DNA from: Neorhizobium vignae
Lineage (GTDB): Bacteria > Pseudomonadota > Alphaproteobacteria > Rhizobiales > Rhizobiaceae
Reading direction: 5' to 3'
Assembly (NCBI RefSeq): GCF_000732195.1
Contig: NZ_JNNU01000010.1
Coordinates: 124,001-188,000, forward strand
Length of the DNA: 64,000 nucleotides
Part shown: positions 57,355-64,000 of the stretch, in pieces
Numbering within the stretch: the stretch's first letter is position 1
How the letters are laid out: each line of letters starts with the position of its first letter
Translations under genes and position numbers: made by a program
Notes under the pieces: model-generated
Databases searched by the model: none
Told to the model about the DNA's origin: nothing
The model's input: the letters and a program-made list of their open reading frames with translations, nothing else

Positions 57355-57854
57355 TGTTGCCTCCCTTTGCGAATTCAACCACAGGCCTTGGCCTTTGGTA
57401 AGGCAAGACCCGCGATTTTGTCGCCCACAGGATAATCATCAGAGCGCAGTTTGCCGGCACCGATCAAAAATTCCGAAAGCGATGAAAAAAAGGAGCGGAC
57501 AAATCGTCCTTGTTGCCGAGCGCCTGCGAAGCAAGAGCAAGGCACGCAAAATCGGATGACAGGAACGGGTTCGCCGCCATGAGATCACAGCTTCAGGCAC
57601 CGCAGACCGAAACGAGCCCGTTGCATCGAGGCAACGTGGTGCGTTCGGCCCCTGCTCATCCTGCAGGCCCGAGCTTCAAATTGTCTCCTGCCCCGGCGCC
57701 GCAGCCGGCAATCCAGAAAAAACATTCTCAGCAGCCAGATCACTGTCGGCGGATGCCCGGCTGAAAACCGGCACAGGCTGTCGGCCCCGGCCGCCTGGCG
57801 CTGACTGGAAAGCCATTGCGTGGTCGTCGGCTTGTGCAATGGGGATGGAGACAT
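57355..57854. other. Intergenic region with no clear gene
   Basis: About 500 bases separate the enolase-superfamily gene from the siderophore operon. Short open frames exist, one starting at 57482 and encoding 25 residues, but none has a good ribosome site. I looked for RirA-type (TGA, nine bases, TCA) and Irr-type boxes and found none that I can support. A promoter for the siderophore operon must lie here. Confidence 0.4.
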
Positions 57855-59639
57855 ATGCAATCGTCAAGACAGACCGCGGAAGCGGCGACATTCCAGAGTT
57901 TTGCGAACTGCTATCTGCGGGAGGTCAGTTCCGGCACCCGGATTGTCCACCGCAGCATCAGCGGAGCGGTCGATGCCATCGAATGGCCACTGCCGCAGCA
58001 GCAGATGCTCTTGCGCGCAGAGATCGTCTCCGCGTCCGTCTGCGGACCGCAGCATTTCGGCAGGTTGTGGACGCGCGCCGCGTCCGACATGTCCTGGCGG
58101 GCGGTCGAGCCGATGTCGGCGCTGCATCTCCTCCTCCAGGAAGCCTACCGGCAAATGGAGGACGACCGGACCGATACCCTGCGCAGCTTTGAACTGGAGC
58201 TGCTGGTGCGCGTTCTCGACAGCTACCAGCAGATGACGCTCTACCTTGAAGAGGCCTCTCCCGCGCCGCCGGACGAGGGACATTTCATCGAGGCGGAACA
58301 ATCGCTCGTCTTCGGCCACTGGCAGCATCCGACGCCGAAGAGCCGGCAGGGCATGACATTCTGGCAGCAGGAGCGATATGCCCCGGAACTGCGCGGACAA
58401 TTCCAGCTGCAGTATTTTGCCGCCAGGACAGAACATGTCCGCGAGGCTTCAGCGCGAACGATGCAGGCGCACGAAATCATCCGCTCCGAACTTGGCGCAT
58501 CCGGAGCCGATCCCGGCATCGACCCGGACGAGTGCCTCATACCCATGCATCCGCTGCAGGCTGAAGCGCTGCTTCTTGATCCGAGCATCCAGGCGATGCA
58601 GCGCGACGGCCGCCTGCGTCATCTCGGCCCTGCCGGGTCTCTCTTCACCGCGACGTCGTCGGTACGTACCGTCTACAGCCCTCATTCCGATTGGATGCTG
58701 AAGTTCTCGCTTCCCGTGCGCATCACCAATTCCGTGCGCATCAATCGCCGGCCGGAGCTTGAAGCCGGGGTAGCGATGGCAAAACTGATAGAGGGCATCG
58801 GCTTTGCCGAGCGCTCCAAAAACTTCCGCATCATCCAGGATCCCGCCTATATCACCCTCGATATACCGGGCCGCGAGGAAAGCGGTTTCGAAGTCATCCT
58901 GCGCGAGAATCCATTCAAGGGCGCGAGGGCCCAGGGCGTCGTGACGGTCGCCGCCCTCACCGCCGACCCCCTTCCCGGCGACCTGTCGAGACTGGAGCGG
59001 ACCATCCGCAGGCTCGCAGCCAGAGGCGGCGACGGTATTTCAAACATCGCGCTTGCATGGTTCCGGCGTTATCTCGGCTGCGCCGTGGAGCCACTGATCC
59101 GGCTCTACGACGACTACGGAGTGGCGCTCGAAGCCCACCAGCAGAACACCCTCCTCGATATCGGCATGGGTTATCCGGGCGCCAGCTACTATCGCGACAA
59201 CCAGGGCTTTTATCTTTCGGAGCGTTATCGCAGCCTGCTTGCCGGGCATGCACCGGAAACGGAAACAATTGCCTCGCTCTATTTCCCGGATGCCGAAATC
59301 CGTGATCGGTTCGCCTATTACCTGATCGTCAACCAGGTCTTTTCCGTCATCAGCCGCATGGGCCATGACGGAGTTTGCGACGAGGGTGTGCTTCTGTTTG
59401 CCCTGCGGGCGCATCTGGAACACTGCGCCGAAACGATGTCCGGCGCCGGGCGGGATTTTGCGAGGCACATTCTCGATCTGCCGACGATCACGTCGAAGGC
59501 CAATCTTACGACCCGCCTTTTCGATGTCGACGAACTGCAGTCGAACGGCGTGCATTCCCTGTATCGGTCCATCCCGAACCCGCTGAGGGTTCCGATCGCC
59601 CTTTCAGCACCGAGGACCGGCCATGCCATTGCCTCTTGA
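57855..59639 (+). CDS. asbA: Siderophore synthetase, AsbA-like (IucA/IucC family)
   Basis: A 594-residue NRPS-independent siderophore synthetase. In petrobactin synthesis AsbA condenses citrate with spermidine using ATP. Motifs: MHPLQAEALL (about residue 230), SVRTVYSPHSDWMLKFSLPVRITN (about 267) and EAHQQNTLLDIG (about 425), all characteristic of the family. The frame is open earlier, but the ATG at 57855 has GGAG five bases before it. It opens a four-gene operon, overlaps the next gene by 17 bases, and is 500 bases from the divergent dehydratase. I call it AsbA rather than another NIS synthetase because the order matches asbABCDE. Substrate specificity needs a phylogenetic test. Confidence 0.82.
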   Translation: MQSSRQTAEAATFQSFANCYLREVSSGTRIVHRSISGAVDAIEWPLPQQQMLLRAEIVSASVCGPQHFGRLWTRAASDMSWRAVEPMSALHLLLQEAYRQMEDDRTDTLRSFELELLVRVLDSYQQMTLYLEEASPAPPDEGHFIEAEQSLVFGHWQHPTPKSRQGMTFWQQERYAPELRGQFQLQYFAARTEHVREASARTMQAHEIIRSELGASGADPGIDPDECLIPMHPLQAEALLLDPSIQAMQRDGRLRHLGPAGSLFTATSSVRTVYSPHSDWMLKFSLPVRITNSVRINRRPELEAGVAMAKLIEGIGFAERSKNFRIIQDPAYITLDIPGREESGFEVILRENPFKGARAQGVVTVAALTADPLPGDLSRLERTIRRLAARGGDGISNIALAWFRRYLGCAVEPLIRLYDDYGVALEAHQQNTLLDIGMGYPGASYYRDNQGFYLSERYRSLLAGHAPETETIASLYFPDAEIRDRFAYYLIVNQVFSVISRMGHDGVCDEGVLLFALRAHLEHCAETMSGAGRDFARHILDLPTITSKANLTTRLFDVDELQSNGVHSLYRSIPNPLRVPIALSAPRTGHAIAS

Positions 59640-61359
59640 AGCCGTGGGAGAACCTCGCGACCGCGTCATCCGCCAGCTTATGGCAGCCCTGCTGTTCGAG
59701 GGCGTCATAGAGGTGCGCGAAAGCGCCTGTGACGGTGCGACGCAATTTCAGTGGATGCTCGGTGGCCGGGAATTCCGGTGCCGCGGCACGATCGGCCCGT
59801 TCGGACGCACCCGCATCGCGACGGGCTCGGTGGAGATGCGGGCCGTGGATGGCCATTGGGAAAGCGCCTCGCTCGGCGCGATCATCCCGTCATTGCCCGG
59901 TACCGGGATCACACGGGGCAAGCTGCTCGGCGAACTGGAGCAGACGATCGCCTTTTCCGAATGGAACCACCAAAATCTGCCCATGAAGAACCGCCGCGCC
60001 CTCGCCCTTGTCGAACTGGAAGGTGCCATCGACGAAGGGCATCCGTACCATCCCTGTTACAGAGCCCGAAGCGGATTTTCGTTTGCCGATCATGCCGCCT
60101 ACGGACCGGAATCAGGGCAGGCATTCCAGCTCGTCTGGCTGCTCGTCGCGCAAAGACATCTCGCCCAGGCGCTACCGGGCAGCAGAGACGCCTTCTGGCG
60201 TGCCGAACTTGGCGATGAGACGTGGGCTGTGCTGGAGGCGAGGCGGAAACGGCTTGGCGTGGCAGCCGGAGATTTCGGGCTGTTGCCGCTCCACCCGTGG
60301 CAATGGAAAGACCTTGGCGAAACCATGCGCGCGGGGTGGATCGCCGCGGGAGAGGCGCATTACCTCGGCCCCGCGGGTGATCGCTACGTGGCAAGCCAAT
60401 CGGTCCGGTCCCTGTTCAATGTCGACCGACCGCTTGCGGCAAGCATCAAGCTGCCGCTCAATATCGTCAACACTTCGTCGCGCCGGACGCTGGAGCCGCA
60501 TTCGGTGTGCACGGCGCCGGTGCTGTCCGCCTGGATCGCCGGTATCGTCCGCGACGATCCGCTGTTCGGCCGGGAATTTCCCCTCGCCATCCTGCAGGAA
60601 TATGCCGGGATCATCGCCGATGCCGGAGGTCCATTGGCCGGCCAGCTGGGTGCGATCTGGCGGGAGAACGCCGAGGCGATGCTCTCGTCCGGCGAGGCAA
60701 TCATCCCGTTCAACGCGCTGATGATGATCGAAGCGGACGGAAAGCCCTTCGCGGATGAGTGGATCGAGCGTTTCGGGCTCATGCCATGGCTGAACCGGCT
60801 TCTGGAGGTCGCCGTCCTGCCTGTCTGGCACCTCCTTGTCGCCCACGGGATCGCCGTTGAAGCCCACGGCCAGAATATGCTGCTCGTCCACCGCGACGGC
60901 TGGCCGGTGCGGCTTATCCTGCGCGATTTCCACGAGAGCGTGGAATTTGCGCCCGATTTCCTGCGCGAGCCGAAGAGAGCTCCGGATTTCGCTGCGCTGA
61001 ACCCGCTCTACCGCCACGCGGAACCGGATCAGTATTACTGGACGGACAATCTCGATTCCCTGCGGGAGCTCGTGATGGACACGCTTTTCGTGTTCAATCT
61101 GGCGGAAATCTCGCATCTTCTCGACGTCTGTTACGGACTTCCGGAGTTCCGTTTCTGGCAGCGGGTCGAAGGTCTGCTCGCCGGCTATGCGCAAGAGCAG
61201 GGCATGCAGCACCGGCAGTCGCTGCTGGGGCATAACCGCGCGCTCATCCTCACCGAATCCCTGATCACCCGAAAGCTCCTCGCGCTGAAGCCGGAATATC
61301 ACCACGAGGTGCCGAATGCCTTGGCTGCCAGGACGTCTGAACGAAGGAGAAAGCCATGA
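59623..61359 (+). CDS. asbB: Siderophore synthetase, AsbB-like (IucA/IucC family)
   Basis: A 578-residue NIS synthetase. In petrobactin synthesis AsbB makes the second amide bond between citrate and a spermidine arm. Motifs: HPWQWKDLGETMRAGW (about residue 223), SVRSLFNVDRPLAASIKLPLNIVN (about 260), VEAHGQNMLLVHRD (about 412) and LILRDFHESVEF (about 434), all matching the ATP-grasp-like fold of the family. Its ATG overlaps the first synthetase by 17 bases and its stop overlaps the AMP ligase by four. A truncated version is excluded by length. The pair of different NIS synthetases is expected for petrobactin, which has two amide bonds to citrate. Confidence 0.82.
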   Translation: MPLPLEAVGEPRDRVIRQLMAALLFEGVIEVRESACDGATQFQWMLGGREFRCRGTIGPFGRTRIATGSVEMRAVDGHWESASLGAIIPSLPGTGITRGKLLGELEQTIAFSEWNHQNLPMKNRRALALVELEGAIDEGHPYHPCYRARSGFSFADHAAYGPESGQAFQLVWLLVAQRHLAQALPGSRDAFWRAELGDETWAVLEARRKRLGVAAGDFGLLPLHPWQWKDLGETMRAGWIAAGEAHYLGPAGDRYVASQSVRSLFNVDRPLAASIKLPLNIVNTSSRRTLEPHSVCTAPVLSAWIAGIVRDDPLFGREFPLAILQEYAGIIADAGGPLAGQLGAIWRENAEAMLSSGEAIIPFNALMMIEADGKPFADEWIERFGLMPWLNRLLEVAVLPVWHLLVAHGIAVEAHGQNMLLVHRDGWPVRLILRDFHESVEFAPDFLREPKRAPDFAALNPLYRHAEPDQYYWTDNLDSLRELVMDTLFVFNLAEISHLLDVCYGLPEFRFWQRVEGLLAGYAQEQGMQHRQSLLGHNRALILTESLITRKLLALKPEYHHEVPNALAARTSERRRKP

Positions 61360-62636
61360 TCCAGATCGATGGACGGCTCTACGATCACGCCTATTTCGAT
61401 GAAACTTCGCAAAGCATTGCCGCACAGATCGGCCTTGCTCAAAACGACCGCGGACACTACGCGGTCTGCTTCAGCGAGACGACGCAATGGCTTTCCCTGT
61501 TCTTCGCCATCCGCAAGGCCGGCGCCAGCGTCCTGCCGATTCATCCCGGCACGCCCTATGCCGCCGCCCGAAAACTGGCGATCACGGCCAACTGCGACCG
61601 GCTTTTCTACAACAGCCTGACGGCCGAAGTGCTCGACGCGCGGCAGGAGGCGCCAAAGCCGGGCCGGCTGCTGCATATGAGTTCGGGGACGACCGGGGCG
61701 GCAAAATGCATCGCCCGGCCCTGGGCTGAAATCGACCGGGAGGTCGAAAGCTATGTCGCAACCTTCCGCGAACCCGAAGGCATGACGCCCGTCATCGCCT
61801 GCCCGACCACCCATTCCTATGGGCTGATCTGCGGGATCCTCGTGGCTCTCAAGCGCGGCCAGATCCCCGTCATCGTCGAGACCGCCAATCCGAAATATCT
61901 CCTGAAAGTGCTGCGCGAAACCGAACGGCCGCTCCTCTATTCCTCCCCGGCGATCCTCCACACGCTCTCGCGGCTTTTGCCCGAGGGGGAAAAACTTCAT
62001 GCGGCTATGACCTCCGGCACACTGCTGCCCGATCCGTGGTTCGTGCAGATCCGCGCAAAGAGCGAACATCTCTTCCAGCAATATGGCTGCTCCGAATCCG
62101 GCTGCATCGCCATCAACCCGGACATGCGGGCCGCAGGCGACATGGGTTTCGTCCTGCCGCATCTGACGGCCGAGACCGGATCGGGCGTTGACGATGCCGG
62201 GGAGATCGTCGTCCGGAACGATGGCGGCGCGGCAATCCACACCCGCGACCTCGGTTACCGCCGCAAGGACGGTATGCTGGTCTTCGTGTCGCGCATGGAC
62301 GACATGATCAACGTCTCGGGTCTCAACGTCTATCCCGGCGACGTGGAGGATGCGGTGATGGCTATGCCTGGCGTCACCGACGCCGTCGCCTTCCGCAAGG
62401 CGGATCGTTTTGCCGGCGAACGTGTCGTGCTGCTCTACAGCGCCAGCAAGCCGGTGGCGCCGCAGGATATCCGCGCCTGGTGCAGCCGCCATCTCGCCAG
62501 CCACCAGTTGCCGATGGAGATGATCCAGGTCGGCGAAATCCCCCGCCAGGCGAACGGCAAGATCAGCCGCCGCGAGGTCGCGGCCCGCCATGCGGCCGGC
62601 GAGTTCGCAGCCCCCGAAGCAGGAGTTGCCTCATGA
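61356..62636 (+). CDS. asbC: AsbC-like 3,4-dihydroxybenzoate adenylating enzyme
   Basis: A 426-residue AMP-forming acyl-CoA ligase family protein. The phosphate-loop motif is LLHMSSGTTGAAKCI (about residue 105-119), then TSGTLLPDPWFVQI and FQQYGCSESGCI, DDMINVSGLNVYPGDVEDAV (about 318) and the catalytic-Lys region RQANGKISRREV (about 400). In petrobactin synthesis AsbC adenylates 3,4-dihydroxybenzoate and loads the carrier protein AsbD. Here AsbD is fused to the next enzyme. It overlaps both neighbours by four bases (ATGA), so the order and amounts are tied together. Similarity to other aryl-AMP ligases cannot be excluded. Confidence 0.82.
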   Translation: MIQIDGRLYDHAYFDETSQSIAAQIGLAQNDRGHYAVCFSETTQWLSLFFAIRKAGASVLPIHPGTPYAAARKLAITANCDRLFYNSLTAEVLDARQEAPKPGRLLHMSSGTTGAAKCIARPWAEIDREVESYVATFREPEGMTPVIACPTTHSYGLICGILVALKRGQIPVIVETANPKYLLKVLRETERPLLYSSPAILHTLSRLLPEGEKLHAAMTSGTLLPDPWFVQIRAKSEHLFQQYGCSESGCIAINPDMRAAGDMGFVLPHLTAETGSGVDDAGEIVVRNDGGAAIHTRDLGYRRKDGMLVFVSRMDDMINVSGLNVYPGDVEDAVMAMPGVTDAVAFRKADRFAGERVVLLYSASKPVAPQDIRAWCSRHLASHQLPMEMIQVGEIPRQANGKISRREVAARHAAGEFAAPEAGVAS

Positions 62637-63934
62637 CGCGCGAAGATATTCTCGAAGCCGTCCGGACCGTGCTTTCCGAGCACATGGCCCATCCGCATAT
62701 GCGTGGCTTCGCACCCGAAGCGCGCCTCAACGAGGACCTTTATCTCGATTCCGTCCTGATCCTGCAGATCTTCCTCAATCTCGAGCTGGAATACGGCCTT
62801 GCCATGCCGGAAGAAGCGATCGCGCGGCAGGAACTCGACACGGTTGCGGATCTCGTGGCCCTCTACGTGCCGAAGGCCATCATTCCCTCTTTCCCGATGA
62901 CAGGCGGAACGGCAGATGAGGGCGTCCATGGTGAGGCCTATTACGACATCAAGGTACATTGCTTCGTCAGTTGCGTCTGCGACGGTCTGAAACGGCAGGG
63001 GCTCGACCAGCGGCCCTTCTATTTCGGGGTCTGGGACGCGAGATTTACCGTCAGCGAAAGCTTCCAGCTCCTCTATCATTCGCCGGAGATAACCCAGGAC
63101 TTCTTCCGCGACTGGTTCCAGCGGCTTTACCAGGTCCAGGTCCGGGAGTGGTACGACCCGGCAAAATCGAAGAGCGACAACCTCGCCACGCTTTTCGACC
63201 TCGTCGACAGCCGCCCGGAGACCGGCTCGGTCATGGTCATGCTCGACATGTTCCATCTTCCCGAGCGCGAGAACAAATTCAACCAGAACCCCTTCCCGCA
63301 TTATCTGATGCTGCAGAAGACCGCCGACCCCGGCAAATGGTTCGTGCATGATCCCGATTACCGATGTGAAGGCGAGATCGAGCGGGAAAAGGTGATCCAC
63401 GCGATCATGCAGCCGACGGTCGGCGGCGGTTACGTCTTCGACAACGCACAGGCACGCAATCCGGCGCCGGAAGATCTGAGGGATTATTTCGAGGCCTGCT
63501 TCGTCGCTGAGCGCAATCCTTTGTCCGACGCCGTACGCGGCATCGTCACAGCCCATATCGACGGCCGCAACGGGCTGCAGCTGGCGAACCTGGCATCGGC
63601 GGTTCGCGAACTGCCGGTGATCACCATCCGCAAATATGCCTATGAGCACGGTTTCGCTTTCTTCTGGCGCGCCCTGAAACTGCCTTCCGCCGAATTCGAA
63701 ATCTGGTGCGAGGAGATCGAAGCGCTCGTCCAATCGCTGAAAAACCTGCATTACGCCTGCATGAAACTCGGCCAGACCGGCGACAGGAACCAGGCCGGTG
63801 CAGTCTTCGAGCGCCTTGACGAGGCCGATCGGCTGGAACGCAAACTGAAAGCCAGGCTTGGCGAGGTCTTTTCCGACTGGTGCGACCAAAATGTACCGCT
63901 CACCGCGCCGAGGCTTAGAAGGGCCGCCGGATAA
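62633..63934 (+). CDS. Fused AsbD carrier domain and AsbE condensing enzyme
   Basis: A 433-residue fusion. Residues 1-85 form an acyl-carrier domain with Ser40 in the DLYLDSVLI motif, the site for phosphopantetheine. Residues 95-433 form a larger domain resembling AsbE (YYDIKVHCFVSCVCDGLK, FYFGVWDARFTV, VMVMLDMFHLPE). In petrobactin synthesis in Bacillus, AsbD and AsbE are separate proteins: AsbD holds 3,4-dihydroxybenzoate and AsbE joins it to spermidine. Here the frame passes without a stop from one to the other. The true start is the ATG at 62633 overlapping the AMP ligase stop (ATGA). The earlier open frame to 62480 is a shadow. AsbF is not in this window. Confidence 0.78.
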   Translation: MTREDILEAVRTVLSEHMAHPHMRGFAPEARLNEDLYLDSVLILQIFLNLELEYGLAMPEEAIARQELDTVADLVALYVPKAIIPSFPMTGGTADEGVHGEAYYDIKVHCFVSCVCDGLKRQGLDQRPFYFGVWDARFTVSESFQLLYHSPEITQDFFRDWFQRLYQVQVREWYDPAKSKSDNLATLFDLVDSRPETGSVMVMLDMFHLPERENKFNQNPFPHYLMLQKTADPGKWFVHDPDYRCEGEIEREKVIHAIMQPTVGGGYVFDNAQARNPAPEDLRDYFEACFVAERNPLSDAVRGIVTAHIDGRNGLQLANLASAVRELPVITIRKYAYEHGFAFFWRALKLPSAEFEIWCEEIEALVQSLKNLHYACMKLGQTGDRNQAGAVFERLDEADRLERKLKARLGEVFSDWCDQNVPLTAPRLRRAAG

Positions 63935-64000
63935 GGCGGAAACATGCATCTATCTCGCCGCTTCGCTTCTCCCAAAGGTGTCGGGACGGGTCGGAGGGAC

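Follow-up and report, generated by a model that had tools for sequence, protein, structure and literature searches.

Petrobactin consists of two 3,4-dihydroxybenzoyl-spermidine arms on citrate, and AsbF, a 3-dehydroshikimate dehydratase, makes the 3,4-dihydroxybenzoate. The petrobactin genes asbABCDEF are known from Bacillus, and six asb genes of the same names are reported for the fprA-asb-fat locus of Sinorhizobium fredii (PMC8822346; statements from this and the other articles cited are drawn from the accessible parts of each text). A fusion of asbD and asbE has been reported for the mll (methylolanthanin), rhodopetrobactin, and roseobactin loci, where DUF6005 is identified as AsbE (PMC11317620). 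The window analyzed here, a 64,000-nucleotide stretch of Neorhizobium vignae (positions 124001-188000 of contig C10 in a 6.34-Mb draft genome), carries at its right end the genes asbA, asbB, asbC, and a fused asbDE, all on the forward strand, with adjacent reading frames overlapping by 17, 4, and 4 bases. As judged from sequence, these genes form a petrobactin-type operon for a nonribosomal peptide synthetase-independent siderophore (NIS), comprising two NIS synthetases, an AsbC adenylating enzyme, and an AsbD carrier fused to AsbE. An AsbF was recognized neither in the cluster nor in the genome, and the locus is therefore called petrobactin-type rather than a complete petrobactin locus. We favor, with modest confidence, the reading that this is a petrobactin-type operon that has lost AsbF, obtains its aryl acid from aromatic catabolism, and transfers the aryl group by a tethered papain-like AsbE.

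The locus shares with the petrobactin loci of Bacillus and S. fredii the enzymes A to E, a FatBDCE-type importer, a TonB receptor, FecI/FecR-type signaling, and a RirA-type box, and differs from them in the fusion of D and E and the absence of asbF. In S. fredii the fprA receptor gene heads the operon, whereas the signaling, receptor, and importer genes of N. vignae all lie downstream (PMC8822346). The DE fusion is common to the rhodopetrobactin, roseobactin, and mll loci; the mll and rhodopetrobactin loci also resemble the present one in their sigma/anti-sigma/TonB signaling and DUF2218 gene, but both list an asbF homologue (mllF and Rpa1_2628, respectively) and a GNAT acetyltransferase (PMC11317620). 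No acetyltransferase of this kind was found in the ten neighboring open reading frames (ORFs) scanned, and no genome-wide search was made. B and C are fused in mll and separate in N. vignae; the mllBC fusion is said to be unobserved in characterized homologues (PMC11317620). A plasmid of Roseateles sp. XES5 (L027:11005-14004) carries asbB and asbC in one 999-amino acid frame, like mllBC.

The earlier note on this DNA, made from the sequence, described the order asbA, asbB, asbC and a 433-amino acid protein in which a carrier domain with Ser40 runs in frame into an AsbE-like domain. ORF, Pfam, and NCBIfam analyses confirm this arrangement. Both synthetases contain IucA_IucC and FhuF domains, and petrobactin AsbB is the best solved match of the asbB product (3to3, E 1e-99). 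The asbC product scores 560.8 bits against the NCBIfam model PRK08308 (cut-off 513), which we take to be AsbC, a name that the model does not itself carry. In the fusion, DUF6005 spans residues 105-420 (E 2.6e-147). The carrier is recognized by the AsbD model PRK07639 at residues 1-76 (E 4.4e-19; 68.7 bits, under its 100-bit cut-off), which also matches all 51 aligned fusion members, and more weakly by the Pfam PP-binding family at residues 27-77 (E 0.025, under cut-off). In 80/80 named loci (L077-L156, the best 80 of 240 matches), the carrier shares one open frame with all or most of DUF6005, the frame stopping early in L104; the fusion is therefore no sequencing slip, and the absence of a stop or frameshift between the domains bears out the note on this point. 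The rhizobial setting it proposed also holds, the fused protein being 97% identical to one on the Neorhizobium galegae plasmid pNgVX. Its view of the fusion as a novelty, or as streamlining, is not sustained, since the fusion is already in print for three loci (PMC11317620) and present in every named relative. The interpretation given there is thus partly supported overall. In S. fredii USDA 205 (L088:6001-7323), AsbD and AsbE likewise occupy one frame, and asbF is present; the published locus, from a different S. fredii strain, is given as asbABCDEF.

A structure model of the fusion (predicted local distance difference test (pLDDT) 85.1, predicted template modeling score 0.81) comprises an acyl carrier protein (ACP)-like and a papain-like domain joined by a mostly low-confidence and presumably flexible linker (residues 77-104). 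The best solved match of the model in Foldseek is CtaG (E 6.3e-08), and the nearest folds are CtaG (Z 16.9, 282 residues), the carrier-dependent enzyme AziU3 (Z 16.0), and CcbD (Z 15.4), with approximately 280-290 residues aligned and identities of just 10-15%. Cys110, His223, and Asp240 are invariant in 51/51 aligned members. In the predicted model, Cys110 opens a helix and His223 sits in a strand, followed by the acid, as in papain-like enzymes. CtaG (closthioamide), AziU3, and CcbD/LmbD, which are carrier-dependent and form amides, share this papain-like fold (Z 15-17) and the Cys-His-acid order, and CtaG also resembles the AsbE domain in spacing (117/16, compared with 113/17). With the alignment beginning at residue 102 of the fusion and residue 3 of CtaG, Cys110 falls on Cys11 of CtaG, provided that no gap intervenes; PDB titles list the CtaG variants C11A, H128A, and D144N and a complex with PHBA (p-hydroxybenzoic acid). 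CtaG has been proposed to move 4-hydroxybenzoate from the carrier CtaH onto a carrier-bound amine (PMC6772006), and CcbD follows a ping-pong course in which its Cys-His-Glu triad acts on a carrier-bound substrate through a Cys acyl-enzyme (PMC12945683). From the model, we predict AsbE to be a papain-like Cys-His-Asp acyltransferase, and by analogy with CtaG and CcbD we infer that the aryl group passes from the Ser40 carrier to Cys110 and then into an amide with the polyamine. CtaG, AziU3, and CcbD/LmbD differ in having other amine acceptors, and the accessible parts of the CtaG and CcbD papers mention no carrier fusion (PMC6772006, PMC12945683).

An earlier study already assigned DUF6005 to the papain-like families and, from its gene neighborhoods, suggested a possible connection with siderophore biosynthesis (PMC10318531); its main text contains neither "petrobactin" nor "AsbE". 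The present analysis goes beyond this label with the match to CtaG/CcbD and the predicted triad of AsbE. A sequence search of the PDB for AsbE gave only carrier-domain and designed coiled-coil chains among the matches listed (38/38; 60 of 129), and phage records gave no match. No paper joining CcbD and petrobactin was found in a literature search with thin cover of subscription journals and preprints. A CtaG/CcbD-like AsbE would have a concrete, testable active site.

The recurrent absence of asbF is one uncommon feature of an otherwise ordinary fused cluster. A gene annotated as sugar phosphate isomerase/epimerase directly follows the fusion in Phaeobacter, Azospirillum, Aureimonas, Pararhizobium, and Roseateles; the Pararhizobium copy, used as the query, has AsbF as its best solved match (3dx5, E 1.1e-79) and is thereby identified as AsbF, and the copies of the other four relatives match it. 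AsbF is absent from the N. vignae cluster, and the best match in its genome has an E value of 0.106, in a search that did not extend to QuiC/QsuB-type enzymes; the best weak match there is a 68-amino acid piece resembling hydroxypyruvate or 2-oxo-tetronate isomerase. In the genus, DUF6005 occurs in 17/57 genomes, with asbF beside asbDE in 7 and not in 10. Strong AsbF matches are confined to those 7 genomes, and weak partial matches to the superfamily (E 1.1e-5 or worse) occur in 23 others. In the named set, asbF follows the fusion in 59/80 loci and is missing on either strand in 21/80, including Neorhizobium, Peteryoungia and relatives, Rhodopseudomonas infernalis, and four Methylobacterium; AsbF was detected at E 1e-6 in 0/21 asbF-less named genomes and in 5/5 controls. 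For L144/L163, whose sequence ends right after asbDE, the asbF-less status comes from the genome search. The genus and named surveys overlap and are not independent: of the 16 further DUF6005-bearing genomes of the genus, 13 also belong to the named set.

Relocation of AsbF elsewhere was rejected, as no clear match was found in the own, genus, or named genomes. A remnant in the gap after asbDE was likewise rejected, no convincing match appearing in the 15 gaps searched (best E 0.014, in the sister locus L042). The idea of a substitute gene next to asbDE was rejected too: of the ten ORFs scanned in L107, L133, L135, and L143, each matched a binding protein, FecCD permease, ATP-binding cassette (ABC) protein, FecR, or cytochrome c, or had no match. 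The asbF state changed at least three times on one tree and five times on a wider tree (97 loci, with eight duplicate Methylobacterium loci dropped), which rejects a single change; these counts cannot tell gain from loss. A trio with asbF is nested among asbF-less clusters, consistent with either a regain or several losses, and the AsbF tree does not decide between the two.

In the favored reading, AsbC would activate the aryl acid, most likely 3,4-dihydroxybenzoate, and charge the carrier domain with it at Ser40; the AsbE domain tethered to this carrier would take the aryl group onto Cys110 and hand it to a spermidine or homospermidine amine; and AsbA and AsbB would attach two such aryl-polyamine arms to citrate. 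The dedicated synthase AsbF would have been lost, and the acid would come from aromatic catabolism, chiefly as 4-hydroxybenzoate hydroxylated by PobA, or as soil protocatechuate taken up. The N. vignae genome has a full-length pobA (677 bits) in a beta-ketoadipate group beside pcaI, pcaJ, pcaF, and a PcaR-type regulator. With presence set at E 1e-100, which includes three matches below the family cut-off (L115, L118, and L123), PobA occurs in 20/21 asbF-less named genomes compared with 42/59 that bear asbF (Fisher p 0.03, ancestry ignored). In Methylobacterium, where DUF6005 occurs in 24/111 genomes, PobA is present in 9/9 without asbF compared with 2/15 with it (p 4e-5, ancestry again ignored); G134, G137, G143, G162, and G193 are classed as asbF-less by flank alone.

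Several observations weigh against a supply by PobA in place of AsbF. The pobA gene lies on contig C13 and the asb cluster on C10, and pobA is nearly universal in the genus (54/57 over cut-off) and therefore explains nothing within it. The pattern rests on the five asbF state changes of the 97-locus tree, and significance is impossible because there are only four usable independent pairs, of which a mean of 1.7 combine absence of asbF with presence of PobA, as predicted, 1.0 go in the reverse direction, and 1.3 show no difference. The nine asbF-less Methylobacterium form one clade with genomes of 6.5-7.9 Mb compared with 4.5-6.1 Mb in the 15 others, so clade or genome size may confound the pattern in that genus. 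Rhizobium sp. CFBP 8762 (L107), on a long branch, has neither asbF nor a PobA match at the threshold. Four asbF-less genus genomes are among those with weak partial AsbF-superfamily matches, and the restriction of the genome search to AsbF relatives counts here too. Finally, 8 asbF-less clusters differ from 14 asbF-bearing ones at six alignment columns of AsbB and two of AsbA, so some difference between both kinds is possible. The sequence link between asbF absence and PobA presence is thus suggestive only, and replacement of AsbF by aromatic catabolism is plausible but unproven.

Another dehydroshikimate dehydratase elsewhere in the genome, of the QuiC/QsuB type or an unrecognized sugar-isomerase relative, could replace AsbF. 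This is unlikely in our estimate: enzymes of the QuiC/QsuB type exist (PMC7442255) and weak AsbF-superfamily matches do occur, but the best of these in N. vignae is the isomerase-like piece described above; with a genome search limited to AsbF relatives, the evidence against this reading is thin. Slightly less probable again is that 4-hydroxybenzoate itself is incorporated into a methylolanthanin-like product, in which case the cell could do without a 3,4-dihydroxybenzoate synthase and PobA would play no part. The methylolanthanin of M. extorquens AM1 has two 4-hydroxybenzoates, and R. palustris reportedly yields small amounts of hydroxybenzoate analogues (PMC11317620); a CtaG variant was also crystallized with PHBA. 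However, the AM1 cluster retains mllF, and use of 4-hydroxybenzoate therefore does not in itself accompany asbF loss. None of the alignment columns of AsbC and AsbDE separates the 8 asbF-less from the 14 asbF-bearing clusters, which favors an unchanged substrate and led us to reject an altered AsbC pocket, and incorporation of 4-hydroxybenzoate would leave the PobA tendency of asbF-less genomes unexplained.

That the operon is a decaying remnant which makes nothing after the loss of asbF appears very improbable. A biosynthetic gene found in most relatives is gone, and asbB and asbC are each broken in the asbF-less pNgVX record. However, four asbF-less pairs have ratios of nonsynonymous to synonymous substitution rates (dN/dS) of 0.07-0.24, a sign of purifying selection on the remaining asb genes, and all four genes, A, B, C, and DE, are full-length in 10/10 asbF-less genus clusters read from genomes, indicating that these clusters are not decaying; receptor and importer genes are kept alongside, as is a RirA-type box in 8 of the 10. 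In the pNgVX record itself (CP090555.1, L022:12994-16001), asbB and asbC are each split into two overlapping pieces while close relatives are intact, reflecting either sequencing error or true decay.

The favored loss of AsbF with supply from aromatic catabolism can be extended to a broader proposal, which we put forward tentatively and with some doubt, that a catechol siderophore has been reconnected to aromatic catabolism in several alphaproteobacterial lineages, which dropped the AsbF branch and use protocatechuate obtained via PobA or from plant phenolics. Ring cleavage of protocatechuate is iron-dependent; iron starvation would disable it and thereby divert the acid into the siderophore. 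If so, asbF would be an unsafe marker for siderophores of this class, a genome-mining rule that demands it would overlook about a quarter of the fused-type clusters in the named set (21/80), and siderophore supply would hinge on aromatic catabolism, perhaps on root exudates. The papers found that name both petrobactin and PobA concern, by title, the engineered production or use of aromatic acids, and we make no firm claim that either the aromatic supply or a CtaG-like AsbE is an unpublished idea.

Table 1. Coordinates of the asb features in the window (aa, amino acids; values after family names are E values)
Feature	Position	Strand	Evidence
asbA-like NIS synthetase, 594 aa	57855..59639	+	PF04183 8.7e-59, PF06276 1.2e-36; best solved match IucA 5jm7 5.7e-44, then AcsD
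asbB-like NIS synthetase, 578 aa	59623..61359	+	PF04183 6.8e-63; best solved match petrobactin AsbB 3to3, 1e-99
asbC-like aryl adenylating enzyme, 426 aa	61356..62636	+	PF00501 (AMP-binding), PF13193; PRK08308 above cut-off
asbDE fusion, 433 aa	62633-63934	+	carrier and DUF6005 in one frame
AsbD-like aryl carrier, fusion residues 1-76	62633..62860	+	PRK07639 4.4e-19; ACP fold Z 10.7
Phosphopantetheine Ser40 of carrier	62750-62752	+	Ser in 51/51 aligned relatives
Linker, fusion residues 77-104	62861..62944	+	pLDDT <50 at 82-97 and 101-103
AsbE/DUF6005 papain-like aryltransferase domain (predicted), residues 105-433 and stop	62945..63934	+	PF19468 2.6e-147
Predicted triad Cys110, His223, Asp240	62960-62962, 63299-63301, 63350-63352	+	invariant in 51/51
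Start of 260-bp gap, where most relatives have asbF	63935..64000	.	gap extends to 64194, beyond the window

The open frame of asbA begins with a TTG at 57816 and ends at 59639; the ATG at 57855 is the likely start because the start ATGCAATCGTC is common to 11/14 aligned loci. Beyond position 64000, where the earlier note had looked to AsbF, a receptor, and an exporter, the receptor is present together with importer genes, AsbF is missing, and no exporter was recognized among the ORFs examined around the cluster. The 260-bp gap after asbDE is followed by genes for a sigma factor, FecR, a TonB receptor with an STN signaling domain, and a DUF2218 protein, and then for a binding protein, two permeases, and an ATPase, which constitute a FatBDCE-type importer. 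The DUF2218 gene and the second permease were assigned through their resemblance to genes annotated on the N. galegae plasmid, and the best NCBIfam match of the binding protein, far under cut-off, is the catecholamine-siderophore lipoprotein SstD. These signaling, receptor, and importer genes would serve the siderophore operon.

The gap folds well over its 260 bases (z -4.9). An 18-bp hairpin that lacks a T run separates asbDE from the sigma gene at about 64002-64043 (L003:2003-2044) and may end the biosynthetic transcript. Upstream of asbA, no RirA box was found in 13/14 loci, L041 having one. The gap itself contains a RirA-type TGA-N9-TCA box, TGACTATTGCATTCA, at 64050. Such a box is present in 13/15 compared gaps, L053 and L054 having none, and that of N. 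vignae fits the RirA motif quoted for S. fredii (PMC8822346).

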